Assembly (NCBI GenBank): GCA_020162035.1
Contig: JAIUNM010000013.1
Span: 1 to 64,000 of the forward strand
DNA length: 64,000 bases
Origin: Bacteroidota bacterium
Lineage (GTDB): Bacteria > Bacteroidota > Bacteroidia > B-17B0 > Aurantibacillaceae
Direction of reading: 5' to 3'
The first letter of the stretch is position 1. Every line of letters begins with the position of its first letter. The notes below the pieces were generated by a model. The model made no database searches. It was not told the origin of the DNA and worked only from the letters and a program-made list of their open reading frames with translations. Below, one piece after another: positions 10,162-26,901 of the stretch. Both the position numbers and the translations under genes were made by a program.

Positions 10162-11778
10162 TTAATCTACATTATCGTGTAAAAATGAGTTATTTGGTTT
10201 AATTTCAATTTTTTTATCTTCGCCTTCGGTTAAAGTAAAACGAGATACTTGCGACTCTGTACTATGTGTTTTGTTTTCAAGCGCAATGTTTTTTCTTTCA
10301 AAAGCTGTTTGTTTTTCTAAAGCAGCCAAACCATCGGGGCTTTTCATTTTTAAAGTAATTTCTTTTAATTTACGAATACGCTCTTGTGCAATTTTAATTT
10401 GCTCTTCGCGCGATGCTGCTTCATTTTTTTCAGCAATTGGTGTATCGTTTATTTCAATTATACTTTCTTCTTTTACTTCATTAAATGTAAATTCTTCTAA
10501 TGTTGAATTTATTTCGATGTTTGTATTAATTGGTGTGTTATCTATCTGTTTAACTGTCATTTCAATATTGTTTTCAACGTTAATTTCAACAGATTCGATA
10601 TTAATAGTGTTTGTAGTTTCTGCAACAGGAGGCGTTAGTTCTGTTTTAGCTTCAGGTTTAACTTCAACTTCTTGTTTAATATAAACATGCGGCTCAGTTT
10701 TACTTATCTCGTCAATTATATTTGTTTGAACAACTTCATTTATTGGTTGTTCAATTTTTTCTTCTAAACTAACAATTTTTCTTTCTTTAGGGGCGGCAAC
10801 TTCAAAACCTGTAGTTTGTTTAGCTTTAAATCCGGTAGCAATAATTGTTACACTAACATTATCACCTAAAGAAGGGTCAGTTCCATACCCAGTAATTAAT
10901 TCTGCTGTTCCTCCTGCTGATTCTTGAATAAAATCTGTAATTTCTCCAAATTCATCCATATCAATATCATCGCTTCCGCTCATTATGTTTAACAATACAT
11001 GGCGAGCACCGCTAATATCATTATCATTTAACAACGGTGAATTTAACGCTTGTTCAACAGCTCTAATTGCTCTTCTTTCTCCACTTGCTACAGCAGAGCC
11101 CATTATTGCAACACCGCTATCTTTCATTACCGTTTTTACATCATTAAAATCAACATTAATGTGCATATGTAAACTAATAATTTCGGCAATACTTTTTGCT
11201 GCGCCAGTTAAAACATTATCTGCATGTTCAAATGCTTCGCTCATTTTTAAATTGCCATAAATTTCGCGCAACTTATCGTTACCAATAACAAGAAGTGTAT
11301 CAACATATTTTTTTAATTCTTCTAAACCAGCTTCAGCTTGTGCGCGGCGTTTTTTTCCTTCAAACGTAAAAGGGATTGTAACTATGCCAACCGTTAGTAT
11401 CCCTAAAGATTGAGCAATACTAGCTATTACGGGGGCAGCTCCTGTTCCAGTACCTCCACCTAAGCCAGCTGTAATAAAAACCATTTGTGTGTTTTCCCCT
11501 AAAAACTCTTTAATTTCATCAATTGATTCTAATGCAGCTTCTTTACCAACATCAGGAATTGAGCCTGCGCCAAGTCCTTTAGTAGATTTAGCTCCTAATT
11601 GTATTTTGTGATTAACAGGGCTTTTTTCTAAAGCTTGTTTATCTGTGTTGCAAATTACAAAATCAACGCCTTTAATTCCTAAGCGAAACATGTGGTTTAC
11701 AGCGTTACTTCCGCCTCCACCTACTCCAATTACTTTAATAATTGAGCTTTCTTCTTGTGGTAATTCAAATTGCATCAT
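10162..11778 (-). CDS. ftsZ: Cell division protein FtsZ
   Basis: The tubulin-like GTPase that polymerises into the Z-ring at mid-cell. The 538-residue protein shows the nucleotide-binding start [15 protein letters not shown] (about 16-30), the tubulin signature GGGTGTG (about 107-113), and the T7-loop region around '[11 protein letters not shown]' (about 208-218). The GTPase core ends near residue 320. A long variable linker of about 200 residues, rich in Glu, Thr, Asn and Ile, follows, ending in FLHDNVD, the Bacteroidota-type C-terminal peptide that should bind FtsA. It is the last gene of the operon, 51 bp after ftsA, closed by a strong hairpin. The linker makes it longer than the roughly 380-residue E. 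coli protein. Confidence 0.98.
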
Positions 11779-11829
11779 AATTGTATTTTTTAAGGGTTAT
11801 TTTTTTGGTTTGGTTATTTATTTTTAATT

Positions 11830-13188
11830 TTATTCGACATCATCTCTTATCCAGTCTTGTGTTTTTTCAAGTAAATTGGTTAAAAATGAACCTATTCTTT
11901 TTTGTGAATGACCCACAACTTTTTTCTCTTCTTTAGCATTTTCAACTTGTTGGTTTGCTTGTTTATTATCTATAGTTGCTTTATTAGAGTTTAATGTACG
12001 TTTTGCGTCTCTTTCGTATTTCTCTATCCCTTTCATCACTAAACCTACACCAGTTGCAAACAAGGGGTTTTTTAACTTATCGTCGTTTCCGGCTAAATGT
12101 TCGTTTGGAGTACCAATTCTACAATCCATACCTGTTGTAAGCATTGCTAATTGAGATAAATGTTTTAACATAGCTCCACCACCTGTTACAACAATGCCCG
12201 CTGACAATTTACGCTCAAAGCCACTGCTTTTAATTTCATATAACACAAACTCTAAAATTTCTTCCATACGAGCTTGTATGATTTGTGCTAAAAATTTAAC
12301 TGAAATTTCTTTTTGTGGCCGGCCTCTTAAGCCAGGGATAGAAATAATTTCATTTTCTTGGTTTTCATTAGCTAAAGCAGAACCAAATCTAACCTTTAAT
12401 TGTTCGGCTTGTGCTTTTATAATTCCACAACCTTCTTTAATGTCTTCTGTTATAATATTTCCTCCAAACGGAATAACTGCAGTATGACGAATGATGTTAT
12501 CGTAAAAAATTGCTACATCTGTTGTACCACCACCAATATCAACTAAAACAACACCTGCTTCTTTTTCTTCATCGCTTAAAACTGCATCTGCACTTGCTAA
12601 AGGTTCTAAATGTAAATCAACTGTTTCTAAGCCTGAACGATTTACGCATTTAAAAATGTTTTTAACAGCGCTAACTTGTCCTGTAATAATATGAAAATTC
12701 CCTTCTAATCTAATACCTGCATGGCCAATTGGATTACGTATTCCAATTTCATTATCAACAATATATTCTTGTGGTATAACATGTATAATTTCTTCGCCTG
12801 GACTCATTACCAAACGGTGCATGCTGTCAATTAAAGTATCAATATCTTTTTGAGACACTTCATCTTCTAAACTTTGGCGAGTTAACATGCCACGATGTTG
12901 CATACTTTTAATATGTTGCCCTGCAATGCCTACAACAACTTCTCCAATATCAACGTTTGCTGCATTTGCTGCTAAAGCAATTGCTGCTTTAATGCTTGCT
13001 ACAGTTTGTTCAATATTTACAACAACTCCACGGTTTACGCCTAACGATTCCGTTTTTCCAATACCTAAAATTTCTACTTTACCATGTTCGTTTTTTTGAC
13101 CAACTATGGCAGCAATTTTAGTAGTTCCAATATCTAAACCCACTACTAATTCTGATGATAAATTGTTTGGTTGCGTGTTGTTTTCCAT
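11830..13188 (-). CDS. ftsA: Cell division protein FtsA
   Basis: Actin-like ATPase that tethers FtsZ to the inner membrane. The 452-residue protein has the phosphate-1 loop VVGLDIGTTKIAAIVG (about 15-30), the SHS2 (1C) domain region near 85-170, phosphate-2 VLVDIGGGTTDVAIF (about 214-228), and the adenosine motif IVVTGGGAMLKHL (about 330). The tail ends in an amphipathic-looking segment (about 430-448: RIGSFLTNLLEKTQDWIRDDV), as expected for the membrane-targeting helix. It lies between ftsQ (2-bp gap) and ftsZ, the canonical order. Confidence 0.97.
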   Translation of the reverse strand: MENNTQPNNLSSELVVGLDIGTTKIAAIVGQKNEHGKVEILGIGKTESLGVNRGVVVNIEQTVASIKAAIALAANAANVDIGEVVVGIAGQHIKSMQHRGMLTRQSLEDEVSQKDIDTLIDSMHRLVMSPGEEIIHVIPQEYIVDNEIGIRNPIGHAGIRLEGNFHIITGQVSAVKNIFKCVNRSGLETVDLHLEPLASADAVLSDEEKEAGVVLVDIGGGTTDVAIFYDNIIRHTAVIPFGGNIITEDIKEGCGIIKAQAEQLKVRFGSALANENQENEIISIPGLRGRPQKEISVKFLAQIIQARMEEILEFVLYEIKSSGFERKLSAGIVVTGGGAMLKHLSQLAMLTTGMDCRIGTPNEHLAGNDDKLKNPLFATGVGLVMKGIEKYERDAKRTLNSNKATIDNKQANQQVENAKEEKKVVGHSQKRIGSFLTNLLEKTQDWIRDDVE

Positions 13189-13190
13189 AA

Positions 13191-14015
13191 CTAATTAATG
13201 CTTGTTTTTTTTGTTCCTACAATTATGTTTTTATATTTAATATTTATTACGGAATATTTATTCCAACTATTTGTTTTTGTTAAACCTTCTTTATAAAATA
13301 CTTTTAGTTTATTAAATTTTTCTTCGATGTTTGTGGCTTGACCAAAAATAATTTTATGGTCGCCCATTACGGGTATTAATTCAATTTCTTTATTTTTAGT
13401 AACATTAATTTGATGTATTAATGCCATTAAAGTTGAGTCTTGATTTATATACGTTGTTAAATCCCATAAATCATCTAACACACTAATTTGGTTGTAAGTT
13501 GGGTTATTTTTTATTTGTGTTACTGTAAAATCGCTTCGTCTTGCATATGGCTCATTTATTAGCCCATTAGCAACTAATACGCGAGCAGTATAATTTTCGC
13601 TTAAGGGCATTAATTTTGATTGTGAATCAATGTAGTAACTTTCGCCATCTTGGTTTATAATGCGAAGTATTGGCTTGCGTTGTTCAACATCAATTTTTAA
13701 TTCACCATTTAGATCTGCACTAATTTCGGCATTTGCAACAGAAGGATGATTGTTTAATGCTTTTTCGAGTAAAGGAATGTTAATGTTTTTATACTGATTA
13801 TTTAAGAGTAATTCATTTCTTGAATTAAAATAATCTTGAACATCTGTTTCGTTTAAAAAACTATTTTCGGTTGGGTTAGTAATGTTAATGTTAATTGAAT
13901 TAACGATTAGATTTTTTTCTTGTTTATTGATAAAAGATAAAGATAAAGCAATGCCACAAACTGCAAAACACCATGCAATTACAACAAATACTTTTTTATA
14001 ATTTATTTTTTTCAA
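13191..14015 (-). CDS. ftsQ: Cell division protein FtsQ/DivIB
   Basis: A 274-residue bitopic membrane protein of the divisome. A short basic cytoplasmic start (MKKINYKK) is followed by one membrane helix (about 9-29) and a periplasmic part. The POTRA-like segment (about 38-105) contains 'NETDVQDYF' and 'LEKALNNHPSVANAEISADLNGELKIDVEQRKPILRI'. The sequence is divergent, as in other Bacteroidota, but this motif and the position between murC and ftsA make the call firm. It overlaps the murC stop by 4 bp (ATGA type), which indicates translational coupling. Confidence 0.92.
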   Translation of the reverse strand: MKKINYKKVFVVIAWCFAVCGIALSLSFINKQEKNLIVNSININITNPTENSFLNETDVQDYFNSRNELLLNNQYKNINIPLLEKALNNHPSVANAEISADLNGELKIDVEQRKPILRIINQDGESYYIDSQSKLMPLSENYTARVLVANGLINEPYARRSDFTVTQIKNNPTYNQISVLDDLWDLTTYINQDSTLMALIHQINVTKNKEIELIPVMGDHKIIFGQATNIEEKFNKLKVFYKEGLTKTNSWNKYSVINIKYKNIIVGTKKTSIN

Positions 14016-15412
14016 ATTTTATTTTTTAATATTTTTTCAATGGGTTCAACTAATCCATCTATATCACCAGCACCCATAGTAACAAGTACTTCAATGTTAT
14101 TATTTTTCACATAATCCAGCACTTCTTCTTTTGTAACTAATTTTTTATTGTTGCAAGTTACTTTGTTTAATAACCAACTTGAGTTAACGCCTTCAATTGG
14201 CAATTCTCTTGCTGGGTAAATTTCTAAAAGTAAACACTCATCTAACAAACTTAAGCTTTCAGCAAATCCTTCAACAAAATCTCTAGTTCTTGTAAATAAA
14301 TGTGGCTGAAAAATACCAGTTACTTTTTTGTTTGGATAGATTTTTTTTACAGAGCCTATTGTTGCTTTTAACTCTTCTGGATGATGCGCATAATCATCTA
14401 TAAAAACAACAGAGTTACTTTTAACTCTATAATCAAACCTACGTTTAACGCCATTAAAAGAACGTAATGCATTTTTTATAACATCTGCACTTACACCAAG
14501 TAATTGAGCAACCGCAACAGCAGCAATAGAATTTTCAACATTATGTAACCCAGGTAAGCCAAGTGTTACATTGTTAATAGGTTCTATTGAACTTTTAATA
14601 TTATAAACGAAATTGGCGTCTTCAATTTTTATTGAATCCGCACAATATTCCGTATCTAAATTTAAGGAGTAGACTAAACGTTTCGAAGTGAGCTTCAAAT
14701 CGTTATCAACATTTTTTTTAACAACTAAAGTGCCATTAGCTGAAACACATTTGCTAAAAAGTAAATACCCATCTTTTACATGTTGTTCATCTCCGTATAT
14801 ATCTAAATGATCAGCGTCAACACTTGTAATTATTGCTATTTCGGGTTTTAATGTTAAAAACGATCTGTCATACTCATCTGCTTCAACAACAAAAAAAGAA
14901 TTAGTATTATTTATATCACCAAGTAAAATATTAGTGTTGTAATTATTTGAAATACCTCCCATAAAAGAAAAACAGTTAAAGGATGCGCATTTTAAAATAT
15001 GAGTTACTAATGTTGTTGTTGTTGTTTTGCCATGTGTGCCAGCAATTGCAATAGTTCTAAATTGACTGCTTATTTCGCCTAAAACTTGTGAGCGTTTTAA
15101 GATAGTATAATTTCTTTCTTGTAAAAAAATATACTCTTTATGTATTAAAGGAATTGCAGGTGTGTAAATCACTAAAACTTCGTCTTTAGTGTAATTTTTT
15201 AATAATAAATTTAGAGAAGCTACATCTTCGTTGAAATGGCAAATTATTCCTTCGTTTTCTAACTGTGTGGTTAATTTAGTTTTTGTTTTATCATAACCAA
15301 TTACTTCTTTTTTATAATGATTAAAAAAACGAGCTAAAGCACTCATGCCAATACCGCCAATGCCTATAAAGTAGTAAAGTTTATAGCTTAATATGCTTTT
15401 TGTTAATGTCAA
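14012..15412 (-). CDS. murC: UDP-N-acetylmuramate--L-alanine ligase
   Basis: Adds L-Ala to UDP-MurNAc, the first amino acid of the peptidoglycan stem peptide, using ATP in the cytosol. The 466-residue protein has the N-terminal Rossmann motif FIGIGGIGMSALARFF (about 15-30), the Mur ligase P-loop AGTHGKTTTT (about 120-129), the 'EADEYDRSF' region (about 176-184) and 'DDYAHHPEE' (about 319-327) of the C-terminal domain. It overlaps murG and ftsQ by 4 bp each. It follows murG, as is usual in Bacteroidota. Confidence 0.97.
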   Translation of the reverse strand: MTLTKSILSYKLYYFIGIGGIGMSALARFFNHYKKEVIGYDKTKTKLTTQLENEGIICHFNEDVASLNLLLKNYTKDEVLVIYTPAIPLIHKEYIFLQERNYTILKRSQVLGEISSQFRTIAIAGTHGKTTTTTLVTHILKCASFNCFSFMGGISNNYNTNILLGDINNTNSFFVVEADEYDRSFLTLKPEIAIITSVDADHLDIYGDEQHVKDGYLLFSKCVSANGTLVVKKNVDNDLKLTSKRLVYSLNLDTEYCADSIKIEDANFVYNIKSSIEPINNVTLGLPGLHNVENSIAAVAVAQLLGVSADVIKNALRSFNGVKRRFDYRVKSNSVVFIDDYAHHPEELKATIGSVKKIYPNKKVTGIFQPHLFTRTRDFVEGFAESLSLLDECLLLEIYPARELPIEGVNSSWLLNKVTCNNKKLVTKEEVLDYVKNNNIEVLVTMGAGDIDGLVEPIEKILKNKI

Positions 15413-16521
15413 TCTTTATTTTTTTTAATTAATTTTAATACTTCGGCAGCAATTGTTTTTGTTGCATTTGGATATGCCATTTTAACTACATTTAAACTTA
15501 ATTGATTTAACTTTTCGTTATCGTTTATTAAATCTAATGCAGTTTTTACTAAAGAATGGTTTGCGTCAAAATCTTTAACCAAAATTGCTGCTGAATTTTG
15601 TTGCAATGCTAATGCATTTTTAGTTTGATGGTCTTCTGCAACATTTGGCGAAGGAACCAAAATACAAGGTTTACCTATAACACAAATTTCGGAAATAGAA
15701 CTTGCTCCTGCCCTTGATATTACCAAATCGCAAGCTGCATATGCCAAATCCATTCGTGAAATAAAATCAAATGCTTTAATGCCGTTTTCTTTATAATTTT
15801 TTACACTTTCATTTGCAATTGAAATGTATCCTTTGCCTGTTTGCCAAATTAATTGATAATTAGCCTCAAAAATATTTTTAAGCCCTAAGTTTATTGCTTC
15901 ATTAATTGTACGCGCACCTAAACTACCCCCAATAACTAATATTGTTTTTTTTTCGGAATTTAAACCAAAAAACGCTAAAGCTTCATTTCTTTTTGAGTTT
16001 ATATTAAATAAATCTTGACGAATAGGATTTCCCGTAATTAATATTTTTTCTTTTGGAAAGTATTTATCCATATTTGGATATGCAACACAAATTTTATTAA
16101 CTTTTTTTCCAAGAATTTTATTAGTTAAACCTGCATACGAATTGCCTTCGTGTATTAAAGCAGGAATATTTTTTGCGGTTGCCGCTTTAATTATTGGTCC
16201 GCTTGCAAACCCACCAGTACCCACCACAACGTTAGGATTAAAATTTTTAATTATTTGTTTAGTTTGAAAATAACTTTTTATTAATAAAAAAGGTAATTTA
16301 AAATTTGACAATGTGAATTTTCGTTGTAAACCTGCTATTGAAACGCCAATAATTTTATAACCAGCTGCAGGAACTTTTTCCATTTCCATTTTACCAATTG
16401 CGCCAACAAATAAAATTTCGGCATTAGGTATTGTGTTTTTAATTTCGTTAGCAATTGCAACTGCTGGAAAAATATGACCTCCTGTTCCTCCTCCACTTAA
16501 CAAAACTTTTATTGGTTCCAT
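15409..16521 (-). CDS. murG: UDP-GlcNAc:lipid I N-acetylglucosaminyltransferase
   Basis: A peripheral membrane GT-B glycosyltransferase that converts lipid I to lipid II. The 370-residue protein opens with LLSGGGTGGHIFPAVAIA (about 7-24), the glycine-rich loop of MurG, has 'HEGNSYAGLTNK' (about 125-136), and the second-domain motif VIGGSLGARTIN (about 198-209) plus 'SRAGASSISEI' (about 269-279) that bind the UDP-sugar. It is separated from ftsW by 2 bp and overlaps murC by 4 bp. Confidence 0.97.
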   Translation of the reverse strand: MEPIKVLLSGGGTGGHIFPAVAIANEIKNTIPNAEILFVGAIGKMEMEKVPAAGYKIIGVSIAGLQRKFTLSNFKLPFLLIKSYFQTKQIIKNFNPNVVVGTGGFASGPIIKAATAKNIPALIHEGNSYAGLTNKILGKKVNKICVAYPNMDKYFPKEKILITGNPIRQDLFNINSKRNEALAFFGLNSEKKTILVIGGSLGARTINEAINLGLKNIFEANYQLIWQTGKGYISIANESVKNYKENGIKAFDFISRMDLAYAACDLVISRAGASSISEICVIGKPCILVPSPNVAEDHQTKNALALQQNSAAILVKDFDANHSLVKTALDLINDNEKLNQLSLNVVKMAYPNATKTIAAEVLKLIKKNKD

Positions 16522-16523
16522 TT

Positions 16524-17678
16524 TTAAACAGTTTCTAAATTTTCGATTGTTTCGTTAGTATTATTTTTGCTTACACTTAAAATAATTCCTAATGTTATCA
16601 TTGTAAAAATCATTGAGGTACCACCCATACTTATTAAAGGTAAAGGTTGCCCAGTTACTGGAAATAAATTAACTGCAACCGCCATATTAACAAGTGCTTG
16701 AAAAACTAAACTAAAAGTTAAACCTATTGCCATTAAACCACCAAAAGGTTTATCGTTTTCGCGTAAAATTCTAATACCTCTAAACAATAAAATCATGTAT
16801 AAAAAGAGTAAACCAAACCCAATAAATAACCCATACTCTTCTATAATAATTGCATAAATAAAATCTGATGATGCTTGAGGTAAAAATGCGCGTTGTGTAC
16901 TATTTCCTGGTCCTTTTCCAATTACACCACCAGTTGCAATTGCAATTTTAGCTTGTTCGCTTTGATAATTACTTTGTGTATCGCCACTTGAAAAATTTTC
17001 GATACGAGCTTTCCATGTAAATGCACGTTTAGATGGGAAAGTACTAGGAGAAAACCAAATCCATGAAATTAAAATTGTGCCTGCTAATAAACAAATACCA
17101 AGAATTTTTAGTAATATTTTATAATTTATTCCACCAAAAAACATAAGCATTAAGCAATTAAAAAATAAAATTGCAGCTGTTGAAAAATTTGCAGGTAATA
17201 TTAAAACACAAATTATGCTAATTGGAATCATTAAATGTTTAATTACTTCTTTTAATGTGTTTAATGATTTACCTTTAAGAGCAATAATTCTGGCAACATA
17301 AATAATTAACACCAGTTTTGCTAAATCTGATGATTGAAATGTTAGTTTTAAACCTGGTATTTCAATCCATCGTGATGCATCGCCAGCACTTACGCCTTTT
17401 GCTAAAGTGTAAATTAATAATGGAATACAAATTAAAAAGCCAATTTGAGATATTCTGCTAAACAGCGTGTACTTTAATTTGTGAACTAAATATGCAACTA
17501 AAAAACCTATACATACAAAAATGAATTGTTTAAGTAAATAAAATTCTGATTTACCTTGTTGAAATTTATGTGCAAGGGTAACAACTGCACTGTAAACAAC
17601 AAGTATAGAAAGCAGGGATAATAAAAACATTATTGCCCAAACTACTTTATCACCTTTTAAGTAATTAAAAACATTCAT
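16524..17678 (-). CDS. ftsW: Septal peptidoglycan glycosyltransferase FtsW (SEDS family)
   Basis: A polytopic inner-membrane protein of 384 residues with about ten hydrophobic segments. As a SEDS-family glycosyltransferase it polymerises lipid II at the septum together with FtsI, which lies in the same operon. Family features are visible: 'GDASRWIEIPGLKLTFQSSDLAKL' (about 94-117), 'YQSEQAKIAIATGGVIGKGPGNS' (about 237-260), 'DFIYAIIIEEYG' (about 271-282) and the C-terminal 'TGQPLPLISMGGTSM' (about 340-355). The position between murD and murG is canonical. Confidence 0.97.
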   Translation of the reverse strand: MNVFNYLKGDKVVWAIMFLLSLLSILVVYSAVVTLAHKFQQGKSEFYLLKQFIFVCIGFLVAYLVHKLKYTLFSRISQIGFLICIPLLIYTLAKGVSAGDASRWIEIPGLKLTFQSSDLAKLVLIIYVARIIALKGKSLNTLKEVIKHLMIPISIICVLILPANFSTAAILFFNCLMLMFFGGINYKILLKILGICLLAGTILISWIWFSPSTFPSKRAFTWKARIENFSSGDTQSNYQSEQAKIAIATGGVIGKGPGNSTQRAFLPQASSDFIYAIIIEEYGLFIGFGLLFLYMILLFRGIRILRENDKPFGGLMAIGLTFSLVFQALVNMAVAVNLFPVTGQPLPLISMGGTSMIFTMITLGIILSVSKNNTNETIENLETV

Positions 17679-17695
17679 AAAAAAGGAATTAAATT

Positions 17696-19045
17696 TTAAA
17701 TAGCTCTTACAGCCGCTTTAAATTGTAAGCCGCGGTCTTCGTAGTTTTTAAATAAATCAAAACTTGCACAAGCAGGAGATAATAAAACTACATCACCTTT
17801 TTTAGCAATTTTATATGATGCAGTAACGGCATCAATTGTATTGTCAGTTTCAATAATTAAATCTACATGGTTTTTAAATGCTTTAATTATTTTTTTATTG
17901 TCTTTACCTAAACAAATAATTGCTTTTACTTTAGCTTTAACTAAATCTATTAAATCGTCGTAATTGTTTCCTTTATCTTGTCCACCAGCAATCCAAACAG
18001 CAGGTTTATTCATGCTTTCAAGAGCATACCATGTTGAATTAACGTTTGTAGCTTTGCTATCGTTAATAAATTCTACACCATTAATAGAGGCCACAAATTC
18101 TAATCTGTGTTCAATATTTTGGAAATCTTGTAAACTTTCGCGAATTACTTCGTTTCTTACATTTACAATAGTGCTTGCCAAAGAGGCAGCCATGCTGTTG
18201 TAAACATTGTGTTTACCTTGCAGCGCTAGTTGTTCAATTGTCATAATTAAGGGTTGGTTTTGGTTTGGTTTATAATTAAGGGTTATTTGGTTGTTTAATA
18301 AAAAGGCTCCATCACCATCAATTGGTTGTTTGATGCTAAAAGGAATAGTGGTAGCCTCAATTTTATTATTGCTCATAAAGTTGGCTATTACTTCATCGTC
18401 TATGCAATAAATAAATTGGTTGGTTTTGCTTTGGTTTTGGGTTATTCTAAATTTTGATTTTACATAATTTTCAAATTTATAATCATATCTATCTAAATGA
18501 TCGGGGGTAATATTTAATAATATTGCAACATCTGCGGTAAAATTAAACATACCATCAAGTTGAAAGCTACTCAGCTCTAGCACATAGTAATCAAAATTTT
18601 CTTTAGCAACTTGATAGGCAAAACTTTTACCTACATTACCTCCTAAACCAACATTATAGCCTGCTTTTTTAAGTATGTGATAAGTTAATAATGTAGTTGT
18701 AGTTTTTCCATTTGACCCCGTTATACATATTTTTTTTGCTGATGTATATCTTGCTGCAAATTCAATTTCTGAAATAACTGGAATTTTATTTTCGATAATT
18801 GTTTTTACAATTTCTGTTTGTTCTGATATACCAGGGCTTTTAATAATTTCTTTTGCTTCTAAAATTTTTTGTGTTGTGTGTTGATTTTCTTCAAACAAAA
18901 TATTTTCATCTAGTAGTTGTTGTTTGTATTTGTTAGCAATATTTCCTTTATCGCTTACAAAAACGTCAAAACCCTTTTGTTTAGCTAGTATTGCACTACC
19001 TACACCGCTTTCGCCACTACCGAGTATAACTATTTTATTATTCAC
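17696..19045 (-). CDS. murD: UDP-N-acetylmuramoylalanine--D-glutamate ligase
   Basis: Adds D-Glu to UDP-MurNAc-L-Ala. The 449-residue protein begins IVILGSGESGVGSAILA (about 5-21), has the P-loop ITGSNGKTTTT (about 108-118), 'NITPDHLDRY' (about 178-187), 'FINDSKATN' (about 311-319) and the closing 'LLSPACASFDLFKNYEDRG' (about 420-438) typical of MurD. It starts with GTG at 19045, overlapping the mraY stop as TAGTG, so translation is probably coupled. Confidence 0.97.
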   Translation of the reverse strand: MNNKIVILGSGESGVGSAILAKQKGFDVFVSDKGNIANKYKQQLLDENILFEENQHTTQKILEAKEIIKSPGISEQTEIVKTIIENKIPVISEIEFAARYTSAKKICITGSNGKTTTTLLTYHILKKAGYNVGLGGNVGKSFAYQVAKENFDYYVLELSSFQLDGMFNFTADVAILLNITPDHLDRYDYKFENYVKSKFRITQNQSKTNQFIYCIDDEVIANFMSNNKIEATTIPFSIKQPIDGDGAFLLNNQITLNYKPNQNQPLIMTIEQLALQGKHNVYNSMAASLASTIVNVRNEVIRESLQDFQNIEHRLEFVASINGVEFINDSKATNVNSTWYALESMNKPAVWIAGGQDKGNNYDDLIDLVKAKVKAIICLGKDNKKIIKAFKNHVDLIIETDNTIDAVTASYKIAKKGDVVLLSPACASFDLFKNYEDRGLQFKAAVRAI

Positions 19046-20310
19046 TATCTTAATTTAAGTGTTACAAAAGTTAATACAGCTAACATAATTCCTATAATAA
19101 AAAACCGCATAACTATTTTAGATTCGTGAAAACCTAATTTTTGGTAATGATGGTGAAGTGGGGCCATTTTAAATAAACGATGCGTTTGAGCATACTCTAA
19201 ACCACGACGTTTTTTTTGATACTTAAAATAATAAACTTGTAATATAACCGATATATTTTCAACCAAAAACACTCCACATAAAATTGGAATTAATAGTTCT
19301 TTACGAATTGCTATGGCATAAACTGCAATAATACCGCCAATTGCTAATGAACCTGTATCGCCCATAAATACCTGTGCTGGAAAAGAGTTGTACCATAAAA
19401 AACCTACACATGCGCCAATAAATGCGGCCATAAAAACTACTAACTCGCCTGAGTTTGGTATATACATAATGTTAAGGTAATCGGCAAAAATGGTGTTACC
19501 AGAAACGTATGCTAAAATTCCTAATACAACTCCAATAATTGCACTTGTTCCTGCAGCTAAACCATCAATCCCATCGGTTATATTTGCTCCATTGCTAACA
19601 GCAGTTACAACTATTATTACCATGGGTATAAAAATTAACCAACCATATTTTGCACAATCATTACACATCCACGATAAAAATGAACTATAGTTTAATTCGT
19701 TATTTTTAAAAAACGGAATAGTAGTTTTAAGTGTTTTTGTTGGTTTTTCTGAGTAGAGTGGGATTTTTAAACTTTGTTGAGAGTTTGCATTATCATTCAC
19801 CCAAGCTATTTTTTCGTTATGTGTTAATCTTTCTTTAATAACAACATCTGGATGAAAGTAAAACACACAACCAACAATTAATCCAATTCCTACTTGTCCA
19901 ATTATTTTAAATTTTCCTTGTAATCCTTCTTTATTTTTTTTAAAAACTTTAATGTAATCGTCTAAAAAGCCAATACCACCAAGCCATATTGTAGATATTA
20001 TCATTAAAACAATATATACGTTTAATACTTTTGCAAATAAAAGTGTAGGAATTAGAATAGCAGCTATAATAATTATTCCTCCCATTGTTGGTGTTCCTGC
20101 TTTTTTAGTTTGCCCGTCAAGTCCTAACTCTCTAATTGTTTCACCAATTTGTTTACGGCGTATAAATTCAATAATGCGTTTACCAAAAACTAAAGAAATG
20201 ATTAAAGAAGAAATTAATGCTAAAGCAGCTCTAAAAGAAATGTATTGAAATGCGCCAGCACCTGGAAAATCGAAAACTTTATCTAAATATGTAAAAAGAT
20301 AATAGAACAT
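19045..20310 (-). CDS. mraY: Phospho-N-acetylmuramoyl-pentapeptide transferase
   Basis: An integral membrane enzyme that transfers phospho-MurNAc-pentapeptide to undecaprenyl phosphate, forming lipid I. The 421-residue protein shows '[14 protein letters not shown]' (about 70-83), the acidic '[13 protein letters not shown]' (about 113-125), '[15 protein letters not shown]' (about 244-259), '[13 protein letters not shown]' (about 312-324) and '[24 protein letters not shown]' near the C-terminus. The roughly 50-residue insertion around 155-205 is the extra loop that makes Bacteroidota MraY longer than the roughly 360-residue E. coli form. It overlaps murE and murD by one base each. Confidence 0.97.
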
Positions 20311-21773
20311 TATATACTAAGTGTTTGAATGGTTTCTTTTAAAGTTTTAAAATCATCAAAATCGTGTTTAACTCCTTTTATTTCTTGATATTTTTCATGG
20401 CCTTTTCCTGCAATTAAAATTATATCTCCTGGTTTTGAAAATTGACATGCTGTTTTAATTGCTTCTTTTCTATCTGTAATGCGCAATGTTTTTTTAGTAT
20501 CAACTGGAGATACGCCTTTTTGCATTTGATTTAAAATTTCTTCAGGGTCCTCACTTCTTGGATTATCAGAAGTTAAGATTACCTTATCGCTGTACTCGCA
20601 AGCAATTGCAGCCATTACAGGTCTTTTTGCAGAATCTCTATCCCCACCACAGCCAACTAAAGTAATTACGTTTTCATTGCCTGTTCTAATATCTTTAATA
20701 GTTTCTAAAACATTTTTTAATGCATCTGGCGTATGTGCATAATCAACTATTCCTATAACACCACCATTAGATTTTAAATATTGGAATCTGCCTTCGACAG
20801 AGTTTAAATTACTCAGTGCGGTTAGTGTGTTAGTTTTATCTTGTTTTAAAAGCATCGCAACAGCGTAAACTGCCAAAACGTTATATGCATTAAATGTTCC
20901 AATTAATTTTACCCAAACTTCTTGGTTATTAACATTAAGCAATAAACCATTTAAATGATTTTCAATTATTCTGCATTTATAATCAGCTATGCTTTGTAAT
21001 GCATAAGTATAACGATTTGCTTTAGTATTTTGCAACATTACAATACCATTTCTATCATCTTTATTAACTAAGGCAAATGCAGTATTTGGCAATAAATCAA
21101 AAAACCTTTTTTTAGCTTTAATATACTCATCAAACGTTTTATGATAATCTAAATGATCGTGAGTAATGTTAGTAAAAACAGCTCCTGTAAAATTTATACC
21201 TGAAATTCTGTTTTGAACAACGGCATGGGAACTTACTTCCATAAAAGCATATTCACAACCTTGTTTAACCATTTCACTTAACAATTCATTTAACGACAAT
21301 GCATCTGGTGTTGTGTGTGTACTTTGAATTATTGTATTATTTATTTTGTTTTGAACTGTAGAAAGTAAGCCAACATTATAGCCTAAAGCTTTAAACAAGT
21401 TAAATAAAAGAGTAACTGTTGTAGTTTTACCATTAGTTCCGGTTACTCCAATTAATTTAATTTTTTCGGAAGGATTGTCATAATAATTACAAGCAATAAT
21501 ACCTAAGGCATAGGTTGTATCTTTAACTTTTATATAAGTAATGTTTTCGTTTAAATGGGTTGGCAATTCTTCGCATACAATTGCAACTGCTCCTGTGTTA
21601 ATTGCTTTTTCAATAAATTGATGCCCATTAACAGAAGTACCATTTATAGCAATAAATAAAGTATCCTTTTTTACATTTCTCGAATCAAATGTAACCGATG
21701 AAATGGCCGTGTGGGTAGATCCAATAACCTCTTCTAATGAAACTTTATATAATATGTCGCTTAATAATTTCAT
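20310..21773 (-). CDS. murE: UDP-MurNAc-tripeptide synthetase, meso-DAP type
   Basis: Adds the third stem-peptide residue. The 487-residue cytosolic ligase has the P-loop [13 protein letters not shown] (about 107-119), '[15 protein letters not shown]' (about 203-217), and '[11 protein letters not shown]' (about 404-414). The DNPR tetrad is the known determinant for meso-diaminopimelate, so the cell wall is predicted to be DAP-type. It follows ftsI by 6 bp and shares a base with mraY. Confidence 0.97.
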
Positions 21774-21779
21774 TTAATA

Positions 21780-23849
21780 TTAACTTAATTGAAGAATAAT
21801 TTTGTTGCCTTTATTAAATTTTTGTCCTGCTTCTATACTTTGTTTTTTAACAACACCAAAGCCTTCAATTTTAACATACACACCATTGTTTTCTAATAAA
21901 TACAAAACATCTTTAGCAGATAAACCATTTAAGTTTGGCATAATTCCTTTTTTAAGTTGTTGTTCGATATTTATTTTTACTAAGTTTATTTTAGTAGAAT
22001 CTTGTTTATTTCTTACAGTATAAACATCAGAATCGTTATTAGTAAATGGTAAAGAAAATGAGTTTGCTACTTTTGCTATTTCATCGCTTTTGGTTGTAAT
22101 TACATTTGGTACTTTGGTTAAAAAATTTTGAGGATGATTTACACTCTCAATAAAATCTAAACTATTTGAATAAACTTTTTCTGCAATTTCTTTAAATACT
22201 GGGCCTGAAACTAAACCGCCATAATAACTGCCTTGTGTTGGATTATTAATAATTACAATACAAGTGTACAAAGGCTTATCAGCTGGAAAATAACCAACAA
22301 ATGAAGCTTGATATGATACACTGTTTTGGTCTTTATAATTTCCGTTTTTTGCAATTTGTGCAGTGCCTGTTTTTCCACCAACTTTAAAAGCTGTTATATT
22401 TAAACCTTTACCGCTTCCGTTTTTTACTACACCTTCCATTAATTGTTTAGCTTTAGCAACAGTACTTGGTTTTACAATTTGTTCATCAATTATTTCGGCA
22501 CCAAAAGATTTTATTATTTTGCCGTTTTCTTTAATTGCATTTACAAAATGTGGCTTAACCATTTTGCCATTGTTTGCAATTGCATTGTATAATGTTAATG
22601 TTTGTAATGGCGTAACTAAACTTTCATAACCAATACTTATCCAAGGTAAAGATGTGCCATACCAATCTTTATCTTTAACTTGTTTAATACGTGGTATGCC
22701 TTCGCCAGGAATTGCAATTCCTAATTTTTGATTTAAATGAAATGAATTTAGCTTTGCAATAAATTGTTTGGGGTTTTTTCCAAAATATTTATTTACAATT
22801 TTACTTACACCAACATTTGACGAAGTTTCGAAAATACGTTGTGCGGTTAAAATAGGTTCCGCAGGAGGATGAGCATCTTTCATTCTTCTATCGTAATACA
22901 TACATTCTCCATTTCCTACTTGTGTTTTTTCATCTAAAGAAATTCCGAATTCATCAATTACTGCGAGCATAGAAGCTAATTTAAAAGTTGAACCAGGTTC
23001 TGTTGGGTAAGCTAATGCATAATTAAAACTTTCGGTATATAAAGTAGAATCTGTTTTTGATTTTGTTAAATTAGTTATTGCTTTAATTGCGCCTGTTTTA
23101 ACTTCCATTAACACAGCACAACCATGCGATGCTTGATTTTTTATAAGCGCTTTTAACAATGCTGCTTGTGCAACATCTTGTATATTAATATCTAATGTTG
23201 TGTATAAATCTTTTCCGTCTTTTGGGTCAACTTCATTTTCATCATTAATAGGTCGCCAAACATCTCCAGCAATTTTTTGCATTAATCGTTTTCCGCCTGT
23301 ACCTTTTAAAACACTATCGTATGCGCCTTCTAAACCAACAGGCTTAATGCCTTGTCTGGCTAAGCCAATTGTTCTTGCGGCTAAGGATTGAAATGGCCTT
23401 TCTCTTCTGTTGGTTTGAAGAGTAACTAAACCACCTCTTTTGCCTTTTTTTAAAATCGGAAATGTTTTTAATGTTTGTAAATCTTTATAAGAAACATTTC
23501 GTTTTAAAACTACATATCTATCTTTTGTGTTGCGGGCTTTTTGTAAAATTTTTAAATATTCTTTAGTGCTTTTATCTTTAAATAAATTACTTAAACATTT
23601 TGCAAGGGAGTCTTTTTTTGATTTAAATAATTTATCATCAATACTTGGTGCGTTAATATCTACTGCTACTTCATAAAAAGGTAAAGATGTTGCTAAAAGT
23701 GCGCCATTTGCATCAAAAATATTTCCTCTTGATGCTTCCATTTCAAAAACTTTAGTTGTGAAGGCTTCTGCTTTTTCGCGCCACTCATCGCCCTCTTTAA
23801 ATTGTATAATACATATTCGATACAAAATAGTTAATGCAAAAACGCACAT
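21780..23849 (-). CDS. ftsI: Septal transpeptidase (class B penicillin-binding protein)
   Basis: Cross-links septal peptidoglycan together with FtsW. The motifs of a class B PBP are present: EPGSTFKLAS with the active-site Ser (about 280), SSN (about 341), and GGKTGTAQ (about 490-497). One PASTA domain closes the protein (about 620-689). The first ATG (23849) is used here, but it falls inside the membrane helix. The frame stays open upstream and reads ...ENKKDILIRSYFVYILM..., the expected charged cytosolic start plus a full helix. The natural start is therefore probably a rare codon such as CTG at 23898-23900 or ATT at 23901-23903, overlapping the end of ftsL. The ATG coordinates are conservative. 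Confidence 0.95.
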   Translation of the reverse strand: MCVFALTILYRICIIQFKEGDEWREKAEAFTTKVFEMEASRGNIFDANGALLATSLPFYEVAVDINAPSIDDKLFKSKKDSLAKCLSNLFKDKSTKEYLKILQKARNTKDRYVVLKRNVSYKDLQTLKTFPILKKGKRGGLVTLQTNRRERPFQSLAARTIGLARQGIKPVGLEGAYDSVLKGTGGKRLMQKIAGDVWRPINDENEVDPKDGKDLYTTLDINIQDVAQAALLKALIKNQASHGCAVLMEVKTGAIKAITNLTKSKTDSTLYTESFNYALAYPTEPGSTFKLASMLAVIDEFGISLDEKTQVGNGECMYYDRRMKDAHPPAEPILTAQRIFETSSNVGVSKIVNKYFGKNPKQFIAKLNSFHLNQKLGIAIPGEGIPRIKQVKDKDWYGTSLPWISIGYESLVTPLQTLTLYNAIANNGKMVKPHFVNAIKENGKIIKSFGAEIIDEQIVKPSTVAKAKQLMEGVVKNGSGKGLNITAFKVGGKTGTAQIAKNGNYKDQNSVSYQASFVGYFPADKPLYTCIVIINNPTQGSYYGGLVSGPVFKEIAEKVYSNSLDFIESVNHPQNFLTKVPNVITTKSDEIAKVANSFSLPFTNNDSDVYTVRNKQDSTKINLVKINIEQQLKKGIMPNLNGLSAKDVLYLLENNGVYVKIEGFGVVKKQSIEAGQKFNKGNKIILQLS

Positions 23850-23889
23850 TAAAATGTAAACGAAATAAGAACGAATTAATATGTCTTTT

Positions 23890-24360
23890 TTATTTTCCAG
23901 AATTTTGTTTGTTTTTATATAATTCTAAACTATCTACCACTATTTTATTTGGAGGTGAAACCGATTCTTTAAGTCCTAATGTTGCAACAGATTTAGCAAC
24001 TTCACTTTGTTTACTAGCAAACATTAAATCGCTTGTTGTACTTATGTATCTTGTTTTAAGTTCTTTTAATTCGTTAGTTACTTTATTAACTTCTCTTATT
24101 TTACTATCGGCATAATAACCATTACCTATATAAAGAATAGTGATAACTGCAACAAACAACACATAAGGTAAATGTTTTACCATATTTGGGTTTGCTAAAA
24201 AAGTTCCACTAAAAACAGCAGTTAAGCCTTTAGTTAAAACTCCTTTCTTTTTAGGTTTTGGTAATTTTTCTTCTTTTTCGGCAACAATTTCTTCAACAAC
24301 ATTTTGTTCTTGTTCAAGAGCTTTAGTTTTAATTGGTATGTCTCTAAATTTATTTGCCAC
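23890..24360 (-). CDS. ftsL: FtsL-like cell division protein
   Basis: A 156-residue bitopic protein in the ftsL position between rsmH and ftsI. It has a long cytosolic N-terminus of about 75 residues rich in Glu and Lys, one membrane helix (about 76-94), and a periplasmic heptad-like segment ('IREVNKVTNELKELKTRYISTTSDLMFASKQSEVAKSV', about 103-140). This layout matches the Bacteroidota FtsL-like family rather than classical E. coli FtsL; it should form a coiled coil with a FtsB partner. The call rests on position and topology more than on sequence motifs. Confidence 0.88.
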   Translation of the reverse strand: MANKFRDIPIKTKALEQEQNVVEEIVAEKEEKLPKPKKKGVLTKGLTAVFSGTFLANPNMVKHLPYVLFVAVITILYIGNGYYADSKIREVNKVTNELKELKTRYISTTSDLMFASKQSEVAKSVATLGLKESVSPPNKIVVDSLELYKNKQNSGK

Positions 24361-24363
24361 TTT

Positions 24364-25275
24364 TTATATTTTTTCTGCTACTCTAAGTTTTGCGCTTCGA
24401 GCTCGCGTATTAATTGAAATTTCTTCGTTGGTTGGTAAAATTGGTTTACTAGTTAAGTTTTTATAAACTTTTTTTACTGTTCCATAAATGATGTCTTTTT
24501 GTTCAACACCAGTAATGTTCCCTGTTTTGATAATATTTTTAACTATCCTGTCTTCTAAGCTATGGTAAGAAATAACAACTAATCTTCCTCCATTAACTAA
24601 AAGTTCGGTGCATTGAGTTAAACATTCTTCTAATGCTATTAATTCTTGATTTACTTCTAATCTTAATGCCTGAAATACTTTTGCTAAATATTTATGGTCT
24701 TCAAATTTTGGCGTACAACTTTTAATTGCTGCAATTAATTCGTTAGTTGTGTTTATTGAGTTTTGTTGACGGGCATTAATTATTAATTGCGTTAATTTAA
24801 AAGCATTATCAATTTCGCCATAAAACTTAAACAAGTGCAACAGTTTTTTTTCATCGTAAGTATTTACAATCAATTTAGCTGTTAGTTCATCCGTTTGATT
24901 CATTCGCATGTCTAATTCAGCATCAAAACGAATTGAAAATCCTCTTGAAGCTTCGTTAAATTGATGAGATGAAACACCTAAATCGCCAAGTATACCATCT
25001 ACTTTATTTACACCATTTAATCTTAAATAATTTTTAATGTATCTAAAATTGTGTGGAATTAGCACAAAACGTTTATCATCAATTTTATTTTTATGCGCAT
25101 CAATATCTTGGTCAAATGCAAATAATTTTCCAGCATCATTTAAGCAATTTAAAATTGCTTTAGAATGCCCACCTCCTCCAAAAGTTAAATCAACATAAAC
25201 GCCATTAGGTTTAATGTTTAAATTATCAATACAGGCTTGTAAAAGAACGGGGGTGTGATAATTACTCATCTTCAC
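24364..25275 (-). CDS. rsmH: 16S rRNA (cytosine1402-N4)-methyltransferase
   Basis: A SAM-dependent enzyme, formerly mraW, that methylates C1402 in the ribosomal decoding centre. The 303-residue protein starts near YHTPVLLQACIDNL, has the SAM-binding 'YVDLTFGGGGHSKAIL' (about 28-43), 'DGILGDLGVSSHQF' (about 97-110), and the closing 'VVISYHSLEDRIVK' (about 236-249) with C-terminal 'NTRARSAKLRVAE'. The start overlaps mraZ by 14 bp, or 8 bp if the second ATG (25269) is used. It occupies the conserved second position of the operon. Confidence 0.97.
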   Translation of the reverse strand: MKMSNYHTPVLLQACIDNLNIKPNGVYVDLTFGGGGHSKAILNCLNDAGKLFAFDQDIDAHKNKIDDKRFVLIPHNFRYIKNYLRLNGVNKVDGILGDLGVSSHQFNEASRGFSIRFDAELDMRMNQTDELTAKLIVNTYDEKKLLHLFKFYGEIDNAFKLTQLIINARQQNSINTTNELIAAIKSCTPKFEDHKYLAKVFQALRLEVNQELIALEECLTQCTELLVNGGRLVVISYHSLEDRIVKNIIKTGNITGVEQKDIIYGTVKKVYKNLTSKPILPTNEEISINTRARSAKLRVAEKI

Positions 25276-25732
25276 CCAAATTAAAATTTAGCCCACCCAT
25301 TACATCAATTGCTAATTTTTCAATATCAATATCTTGTGATAAAAATTCTTCATAAACTTTTTTATCCCAAATTTCAATTACGTTATTGCTACCTAAAACT
25401 TTAATATCGCTTTGTATATTTGCGTAATCGCTTAAAGATTTTGGTAATAAAATTCTACCAGAAGAATCAGGCAAAGTGTTTGTTGCGCCTCCACTAAATT
25501 TTCTAACAAATACATCGTTTGCTTTAATTAAACGATTTAATTTGCTTAATTTTTTATTTAATTTTTCCCATTCAGAGATTGGGTACAATACCAAACATTT
25601 TTGATGTAAATTTCGGTTAATCACAAAGCCTTTATCAAAAGCCAATTCAAGTTGTCTTTTTAAATCAATAGGAAACATAAAACGCCCCTTAGCATCTACC
25701 TTGCAATCATATTCTCCTATTAAACTTGTCAT
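25262..25732 (-). CDS. mraZ: Transcriptional regulator MraZ
   Basis: A 156-residue DNA-binding protein with two AbrB/SpoVT-like halves. The first half shows 'GEYDCKVDAKGRFMFPIDLK' (about 6-25), the second 'LPDSSGRILLPKSLSDYANI' (about 87-106). In other bacteria MraZ forms a ring-shaped oligomer and represses its own division operon by binding phased direct repeats upstream. It is the first gene of the cluster here, with three GTGGTAAA repeats in front of it (see separate entry), so autoregulation is likely. Confidence 0.95.
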   Translation of the reverse strand: MTSLIGEYDCKVDAKGRFMFPIDLKRQLELAFDKGFVINRNLHQKCLVLYPISEWEKLNKKLSKLNRLIKANDVFVRKFSGGATNTLPDSSGRILLPKSLSDYANIQSDIKVLGSNNVIEIWDKKVYEEFLSQDIDIEKLAIDVMGGLNFNLGEDE

Positions 25733-25754: not shown

Positions 25755-25762
25755 CAAAAATA
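25755..25762 (-). promoter_or_regulatory. -7 box of the division/cell-wall operon
   Basis: TATTTTTG on the minus strand matches TAnnTTTG and is 22 nt before the mraZ start codon. The phased repeats at 25771-25808 cover the region where the -33 element would lie, which suits a repressor-controlled promoter. Confidence 0.6.
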
Positions 25763-25770
25763 AGCAAGTT

Positions 25771-25808
25771 TTTACCACTTTTTACCACTTTAATACATTT
25801 TTTACCAC
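25771..25808 (-). promoter_or_regulatory. Candidate MraZ operator, phased direct repeats
   Basis: GTGGTAAA (minus strand) occurs at 25771-25778, 25781-25788 and 25801-25808, all in 10-bp phase. The intervening phase, 25791-25798, is degenerate. E. coli MraZ is known to bind TGGGN repeats spaced with 10-bp periodicity; here the core would be TGGTA. The position directly upstream of the mraZ -7 box fits an autoregulatory operator. The repeats are seen directly; MraZ binding is inferred. Confidence 0.65.
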
Positions 25809-25828
25809 ATTGTTGAAAAAATACAGGT

Positions 25829-25845
25829 TATTAACATTGTTAATA
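25829..25845. repeat. 17-bp perfect palindrome
   Basis: TATTAACATTGTTAATA is a perfect inverted repeat around a central T, upstream of the mraZ promoter region. It could be an operator for another regulator or a small stem. No known motif is recognised. Confidence 0.5.
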
Positions 25846-26049: not shown

Positions 26050-26901
26050 ATGTTGGCGAAAAAATTTATAGATGTAGAAAAAATTTTAAAGGATAAATTA
26101 AAAAACAAGTATAAATTTTTACCTAAATTTTTAATTAATTGGCTTAAAAAAACATTACATGAAAACGAAATTAATGAGGGGATGGAATACTTAAACCAGT
26201 TTAAAGGTTTAGAGTTTAACAAAGAGGTTATTAAATTTTTTAATATTAAAGTAATATGCACAGGAATTGAAAACATACCAAAATCTGGTGGAGTTATTTT
26301 TGCTTCTAATCACCCATTAGGTGGTATGGATGGAATGGCAATGATTCAAGAAATTGGTAACATAAGGCCTGATGTGCGTTTTATAGTAAATGATGTTTTA
26401 AAGAGTATAAAAAATTACGATGAAATATTTGTTGGCGTAAATAAAGTTGGGAATATTAAAAGTAGAGGGAGTTTACAAACTGTTGAACAAGTTTATAGTA
26501 CAGATAGTGCCATTCTTGTTTTTCCGAGTGGCTTGGTAAGTAGAAAATTTAATGTTGGCATAAGAGATTTAGCTTGGAATAAAAGTTTTATTAATAAAGC
26601 CATTAAATATAATAAACCAATTATACCTGTATTTATTGAAGGACAAAACAGTAACTTTTTTTACAATTTTGCAAAATGGCGCAAACGCATTGGCATAAAA
26701 GCAAATATTGAAATGCTTTTTTTACCTGATGAAATGTTTAAACAACGAGGCAATACAATTAAATTGCATTTTGGAAAACCCGTAGAGCCAAGTGTTTTTT
26801 ATACCGAACGCACACCGCAAGAGTGGACTGAAATAATGTATAAATATTTATATAGTGGTAGTATTCAAAAAGGTGTTAAACTTATTGATTTTGCAAAATA
26901 A
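26050..26901 (+). CDS. 1-acylglycerol-3-phosphate acyltransferase-like protein
   Basis: A 283-residue member of the PlsC-like acyltransferase superfamily (LPLAT). I use the ATG at 26050 because the upstream TTG at 26023 lies in the promoter. The acyltransferase block I motif appears as FASNHPLGGMDG (about 83-94, His-x4-Asp), with block III-like 'VFPSGLVSR' (about 156-164) and block IV-like 'PIIPVFIEG' (about 190-198). There is no clear membrane helix. It may acylate phospholipid or an amino-lipid precursor; the substrate cannot be told from sequence. It is followed by a cytochrome c gene on the same strand. Confidence 0.8.
   Translation: MLAKKFIDVEKILKDKLKNKYKFLPKFLINWLKKTLHENEINEGMEYLNQFKGLEFNKEVIKFFNIKVICTGIENIPKSGGVIFASNHPLGGMDGMAMIQEIGNIRPDVRFIVNDVLKSIKNYDEIFVGVNKVGNIKSRGSLQTVEQVYSTDSAILVFPSGLVSRKFNVGIRDLAWNKSFINKAIKYNKPIIPVFIEGQNSNFFYNFAKWRKRIGIKANIEMLFLPDEMFKQRGNTIKLHFGKPVEPSVFYTERTPQEWTEIMYKYLYSGSIQKGVKLIDFAK

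Follow-up and report, generated by a model that had tools for sequence, protein, structure and literature searches.

Phased GTGGT repeats upstream of mraZ as the very probable MraZ operator of a Bacteroidota dcw cluster

The window analysed here, a 64,000-nt stretch of a Bacteroidota genome (family Aurantibacillaceae), carries on its minus strand a contiguous dcw cluster that begins with mraZ (start at 25732), continues with rsmH and runs down to ftsZ at 10162. Given this mraZ-to-ftsZ arrangement, the cluster reads away from a set of short direct repeats at its head, in the predicted promoter region of mraZ, where an MraZ operator would be expected (Table 1). Within the cluster, ftsL and ftsQ were assigned by position alone, with no NCBIfam match, and the models for the dcw PBP and FtsW scored under their cut-offs. 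On the opposite side of the repeats lies a divergent gene for a GlsA-type lyso-glycine lipid O-acyltransferase (26050-26901; NF053697 above cut-off).

Table 1. Features of the dcw cluster and of the region upstream of mraZ (window coordinates)
Feature	Coordinates	Strand	Basis
mraZ, 156 aa, two MraZ domains	25262..25732	-	Pfam PF02381; TIGR00242 above cut-off; AF2 model and PDB match
Rest of dcw cluster: rsmH, ftsL-position ORF, PBP/ftsI-like, murE, mraY, murD, ftsW-like, murG, murC, ftsQ-position ORF, ftsA, ftsZ	10162..25275	-	profile matches
Probable -7 promoter element TATTTTTG (TANNTTTG), 16 nt past last GTGG, as in relatives	25755..25762	-	match to -7 consensus; recurrence in relatives
MraZ box 4 (promoter-proximal), GTGGTAAA	25771..25778	-	sequence; family-genome specificity scan
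MraZ box 3, GTGGTAAA, at -33 position	25781..25788	-	sequence; family-genome specificity scan
Decayed phase (box 2), ATGTATTA	25791..25798	-	sequence; family comparison
MraZ box 1 (distal), GTGGTAAA	25801..25808	-	sequence; kept across family loci
DnaA-box-like TTTTCAACA, 2 nt ahead of box 1	25811..25819	-	word enrichment; pattern match
Second DnaA-box-like element TTATTAACA	25828..25836	+	pattern match

MraZ is a very widely conserved bacterial transcription factor. The protein encoded in the window has two PF02381 stretches, each domain with a DxxxR motif, and residues D13, R17, D89 and R93 are invariant among 46 sequences. Its model matches the solved M. genitalium MraZ with its own promoter (9R4J) and with a four-box promoter (9SZ7), as their entry titles describe them; our literature search found no paper on the 2026 MraZ structures. 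In the phylum sample, PF02381 found no match in 13 genomes; nine of these come from a single family (f25), where MraZ may have been lost. As regards other regulators, PMC3998124 describes LexA binding at a mraZ from a gut metagenome.

The first-pass annotation had described three copies of GTGGTAAA at multiples of 10 bp (25771, 25781 and 25801) and a decayed phase at 25791, coordinates that proved exact, with the boxes on the minus strand. Like an MraZ operator, the site thus consists of multiple GTG(G) units repeated directly with a 10-bp period. By itself the GTGGTAAA word is unremarkable, occurring seven times in the window versus 3.5 expected, a number reached in 7 of 100 shuffles. Phased GTGGTN5GTGGT without mismatch matched once in the whole 3.17-Mb genome, at the mraZ site, and matches with one mismatch stayed at about the level of the reversed control. 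Among the 31 family loci, 27, the window included, have four phases, with the second reading ATGG (16), GTGG (5), GTGT (4) or ATGT (2); these spellings indicate a four-box array in which box 2 is weak.

Conservation was assessed at 203 mraZ loci retrieved by genome searches with PF02381, reduced to 201 genomes by removing the second copies of two: 31 of the window family (its own included), 100 further genomes of the class and 70 of other classes of the phylum. PF02381 matched in 84/87, 234/247 and 149/158 genomes of overlapping sets, and upstream DNA was obtained for a subset of the MraZ-bearing genomes, its loci picked partly in order of score and partly by hand to widen the sample; one selection of 69 places yielded 60. 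In the 250 bp ahead of mraZ, two GTGG words at a separation of 10 or 20 bp were found in 30/31 genomes of the family, 89/100 of the class and 57/70 of other classes, versus means of 0.04, 0.39 and 0.72 in shuffled upstream regions and 0, 3 and 3 in the first 250 bp of genes. In the Bacteroidota sampled, where the first-pass annotation had suggested looking, 10-bp-phased GTGG arrays upstream of mraZ are widespread (176/201 genomes, with separations peaking at 10, 20 and 30 bp), their T spelling varying by lineage; no phased pair was found upstream of mraZ in 25 of the 201 loci. One record titled Verrucomicrobia (L182) has a Bacteroidia-type MraZ and operator, and may be a mislabelled assembly.

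We also searched in the other direction, from the site to the genome. A search of 87 family genomes for AAGTGGTAAAAAGTGGTAA with up to two mismatches gave 98 matches, and 75 genomes had a site near mraZ. All 63 matches with at most one mismatch (overlapping matches counted apart) lay within 1.1 kb of mraZ, as did 19 of the 35 with two mismatches; the other 16, located elsewhere, were fewer than the 29 matches of the reversed control. A scan of named genomes for AAGTGGTAAAAAGTGGTAAAA, blind to mraZ, gave at least 120 stretches; among the 120 matches listed, 109 were on the same strand within 400 bp upstream of mraZ, four were upstream on the opposite strand and four (L160, L192, L194 and L230) were cut at the end of the sequence stretch. 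As would be expected of its operator, the site accompanies mraZ in relatives and is rare in the remainder of the genome, and because the AAGTGGTAAAAAGTGGTAA and AAGTGGTAAAAAGTGGTAAAA matches concentrate at mraZ, a single main target of MraZ is probable in the family. Three further matches among those listed (L168, L181 and L241) have no mraZ in the locus and may be either additional MraZ targets or chance occurrences.

For the promoter, we take TANNTTTG to be the -7 consensus, with the spacing that goes with it. With the -7-like TATTTTTG where it is, box 3 would then sit at -33, in agreement with the overlap of the repeats with the mraZ -33 region noted earlier from the sequence, although the placement is by eye and follows a general promoter consensus. 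No TTTG was seen at the -33 position of the window, placed in the same way. The geometry recurs in relatives: TANNTTTR occurs within 36 nt after the array in 27/30 family and 69/89 class arrays but in 0/57 of other classes, and at 15-16 nt past the array in 26 of these 27 and 50 of these 69. Conversely, 44/57 other-class arrays have TTGAC no more than 60 nt upstream of their first box (36 of them at 30-40 nt), versus 3/89 in the class and 0/30 in the family. By these two spacings, the array has changed its place at the promoter: in E. coli and, according to PMC7761207, in Burkholderia it lies in the start region, and from there it has moved in the family and class to the -33 region upstream of a TANNTTTR -7 box.

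A second element accompanies the array. Once the boxes were masked, the words with the strongest enrichment in the mraZ upstream regions of family and class included TATTAACA, TATCAACA, TTTCAACA and TATCCACA, which merge into TTWTYMACA, a pattern close to the DnaA box, whose canonical consensus we take to be TTATNCACA. In the 120 bp ahead of the first box, TTWTYMACA is present at 29/30 loci of the family, 81/100 of the class and 10/70 of other classes, versus shuffle means of 2.0, 5.4 and 2.5; one family locus (L005), with N runs over the upstream region, was excluded here and from the inverted-array counts below, leaving 30 of 31. It recurs in 51 of 59 held-out loci, which were high-scoring and previously unused, some congeners having been skipped by hand, and are neither random nor phylogenetically separate from the first set. 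DnaA may thus be a second regulator, with TTWTYMACA as its box and the dcw promoter reading both MraZ and replication status, a reading that we hold tentatively and rate just short of probable. The canonical form TTATNCACA occurs in 16/100 class loci versus 0.88 in shuffles, and TTATCCACA itself in 12/100 versus 0.1; moreover, at L331, TTATCAACA and two copies of TTATCCACA lie upstream of a gene recognised by eye as dnaN. Nonetheless, the commonest TTWTYMACA forms differ from the canonical one, as do both window copies, TTTTCAACA and TTATTAACA, and a same-strand TTATCMACA pair within 30 bp was found in only three of nine genomes, with none in the window's own genome or its sister. The region of the dnaA gene in the window's own genome, considered as oriC, was discarded in that no box cluster was found there. 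The spacing from the end of TTWTYMACA to GTGG (mostly 2-3 nt, or 12-13) is phase-locked and would also fit an extended MraZ operator. An inverted MraZ half-site is disfavoured, because the reverse strand of TTWTYMACA mostly reads GTTG or GTTA and not GTGG. The broad pattern has 32 occurrences in the window. At L330, on a chromosome of single-contig scale, five copies of TTATCCACA lie between two ORFs (2002-2169), a candidate replication origin.

Turning to the spelling of the boxes themselves, those of E. coli read TGGGN, whereas the window site reads TGGT. The TGGGN spelling does not define the operator family, because Mollicutes sites allow G or T: the published consensus (AAAGTGKN3)3, K being G or T, already covers the window sequence, as given in PMC5282649. 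The base after GTGG is T in 87 of 94 family boxes (A3, C3, G1), T126 G89 A23 C6 in 244 class boxes and G110 T21 C5 A4 in 140 boxes of the other classes. The T that the first-pass annotation had taken for a Bacteroidota-specific variant is therefore real and lineage-biased, but its restriction to the phylum is not supported: other classes mostly use G, part of the class uses G, and T is used at L159, L200 and L201, where MraZ is of a different kind and the records are titled differently, and is allowed by the Mollicutes consensus. On these counts across family, class and other classes, T is best described as a lineage preference within the known recognition code, and the sequence is not new. 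The preference could merely reflect AT-rich base composition with MraZ unchanged, which we consider unlikely. Uncorrected, T fraction and GC correlate at -0.48, and the family is AT-rich; after phylogenetic contrasts, however, residue 19 of MraZ was significant and GC was not (p=0.13 by itself, p=0.16 with residue 19 in the model), and at 35-45% GC the split persists, with G49 T8 in the other classes and T79 G48 in the class.

Residue 19, a Met in the window, lies in the AF2 model on a short strand (17-19) directly after DxKGR. Among 497 MraZ position-residue pairs, Met19 was the top correlate of T fraction (independent contrasts, p=1.8e-5, on a tree of MraZ itself with residues 9-21 omitted; contrasts on binary traits are approximate). 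The T/G tests that follow exclude loci without an array (25/201) and ties (22/176). Class loci with Met split 25 T/4 G versus 15 T/29 G with other residues (p=1.1e-5), and those of other classes 3 T/1 G versus 2 T/45 G (p=0.0019). With the hypothesis fixed beforehand, held-out class genomes gave 19 T/2 G for Met versus 13 T/14 G for the others (p=0.0023). Residue 19 remained significant with GC as covariate in all 225 loci (p=9e-7), in 52 held-out loci (p=0.007) and in 57 of other classes (p=0.003), GC itself being non-significant in each of these sets. When every locus that has an array is counted together, Met gave T74 G7 with five ties, Leu T22 G19 with nine ties and, ties apart, Ala G27 T0, Asn G11 T0, Ser G15 T4 and Val G9 T4; Leu leaned towards T in the held-out set (11 T versus 6 G). 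Exceptions noted by eye were Ser with T at L159 and L200, and Ala with T at L201. On the pooled counts, Met19 therefore tracks T as a tendency and not as a strict code, with Leu neutral or mixed. Lys11 (CKVD in the class, S/T elsewhere), picked by eye as another possible determinant of T or G, was rejected (contrasts, p=0.31; uncorrected Fisher p=0.026). It is probably near residue 19 that MraZ reads the base after GTGG; strand alternation would place this residue on the same face as Arg17. One residue tracking one operator base would offer a direct mutational test of MraZ-DNA recognition.

Taken together, position, phase, conservation and near single-site specificity make it very probable that MraZ controls the dcw cluster through these repeats as its operator. 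The computed evidence comprises the array with its phasing, its conservation, the near absence of further copies and a constant spacing to the -7 element; from it we infer binding, repression and ring geometry, and consider it highly probable that an MraZ ring binds this dcw operator over the -33 region and represses mraZ and the downstream division and wall genes. Octamers are described for related MraZ proteins in PMC7761207 and PMC5282649. The ring would lay neighbouring subunits on the GTGGTAAAAA boxes, one helical turn apiece, with Met19 paired with T (Ala, Ser, Asn and Val would pair mostly with G, and Leu with either). Bound MraZ would cover the -33 region directly upstream of the TANNTTTG -7 box, so that repression of its own gene and of the genes downstream would presumably come from blocked polymerase binding at -33. 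It is very improbable that the repeats are instead phased A-tracts, forming bent DNA or an UP-like element that aids the promoter, with GTGG incidental: family flanks are indeed A-rich (A at 78-94% of flanking places, the base after GTGG excepted), but in the other classes the A-runs weaken (31-71% at the same places) while GTGG arrays persist (GTGG being 100% by array definition), and E. coli mraZ has the same GTGG phase at a different place relative to the promoter. For S. aureus, where a G-rich motif is described downstream of the mraZ promoter, a G-quadruplex has been proposed (PMC11796246); that the guanine repeats form one here is a negligible prospect, as the window boxes read GTGGT with no GGG run and most family boxes have T for G.

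The MraZ operator proposed here resembles that of Mollicutes, (AAAGTGKN3)3 (Fisunov 2016, as cited in PMC5282649 and PMC8475190), in its AAAGTGG direct repeats with 3-nt spacers and 10-bp period upstream of mraZ, and differs from it in that T is nearly fixed at K in the window family, the array lies just upstream of the TANNTTTG -7 box and TTWTYMACA stands in front. In the M. genitalium chromosome the operator sequence occurs solely at the mraZ promoter, according to PMC8475190. Burkholderia cenocepacia has four 7-nt repeats with 3-nt spacers within an EMSA fragment shifted by MraZ; unlike the window array, they lie downstream of the -10 box and over the transcription start (PMC7761207). In E. 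coli K-12 (L123), GTGG boxes are found upstream of mraZ in the same 10-bp phase; they are spelled GTGGG, and, unlike in the window, the array is downstream of a TTGACA -35 and a Ser takes the place of Met19 (by eye). No report of an MraZ site in Bacteroidota was found among the top-ranked matches of our literature search, from which subscription journals are mostly missing. The operator itself is of a known kind with a lineage-typical spelling; new, and all of them computational, are the tendency at residue 19, the shift of the array at the promoter, the accompanying TTWTYMACA element and a second, inverted array.

The inverted array was identified, with the main array masked, by scanning the 450 bp upstream for two opposite-strand GTGG words at a 10-bp separation, and it is present at 1/30 loci of the family, 23/100 of the class and 17/70 of other classes, versus 0, 3 and 1 for a second pair on the same strand and shuffle means of at most 0.4. 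It was also found in 21 of the 59 held-out loci and, by the same test, not at the window locus. Among the 39 inverted arrays that accompany a main array, 38 have exactly two boxes and 38 lie 61-218 bp upstream of it, the one at L095 being downstream; no helical phasing between main and inverted arrays was seen in these 39. Their presence is independent of a divergent ORF (Fisher p=0.79 and 0.76, with crude ORF calling), and service to a divergent gene was rejected as their role, although control of divergent transcription is possible; our guess is that they act as loop-forming auxiliary operators. Control of the dcw cluster in the class might then be a composite switch, in which Met19 MraZ on a T-type operator blocks -33, a DnaA box, upstream at a nearly constant distance, links the promoter to replication and an MraZ ring holds a DNA loop by way of the inverted array (roughly 60-220 bp upstream, in about one lineage in five), a scheme that we regard as somewhat unlikely in its entirety. 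If true, the DnaA-box-like partner and the inverted array would provide testable routes from replication and DNA looping to division-gene expression. Loci with inverted GTGG arrays include L074, L156, L167, L231, L265, L271, L040-L043, L046, L050 and L058.
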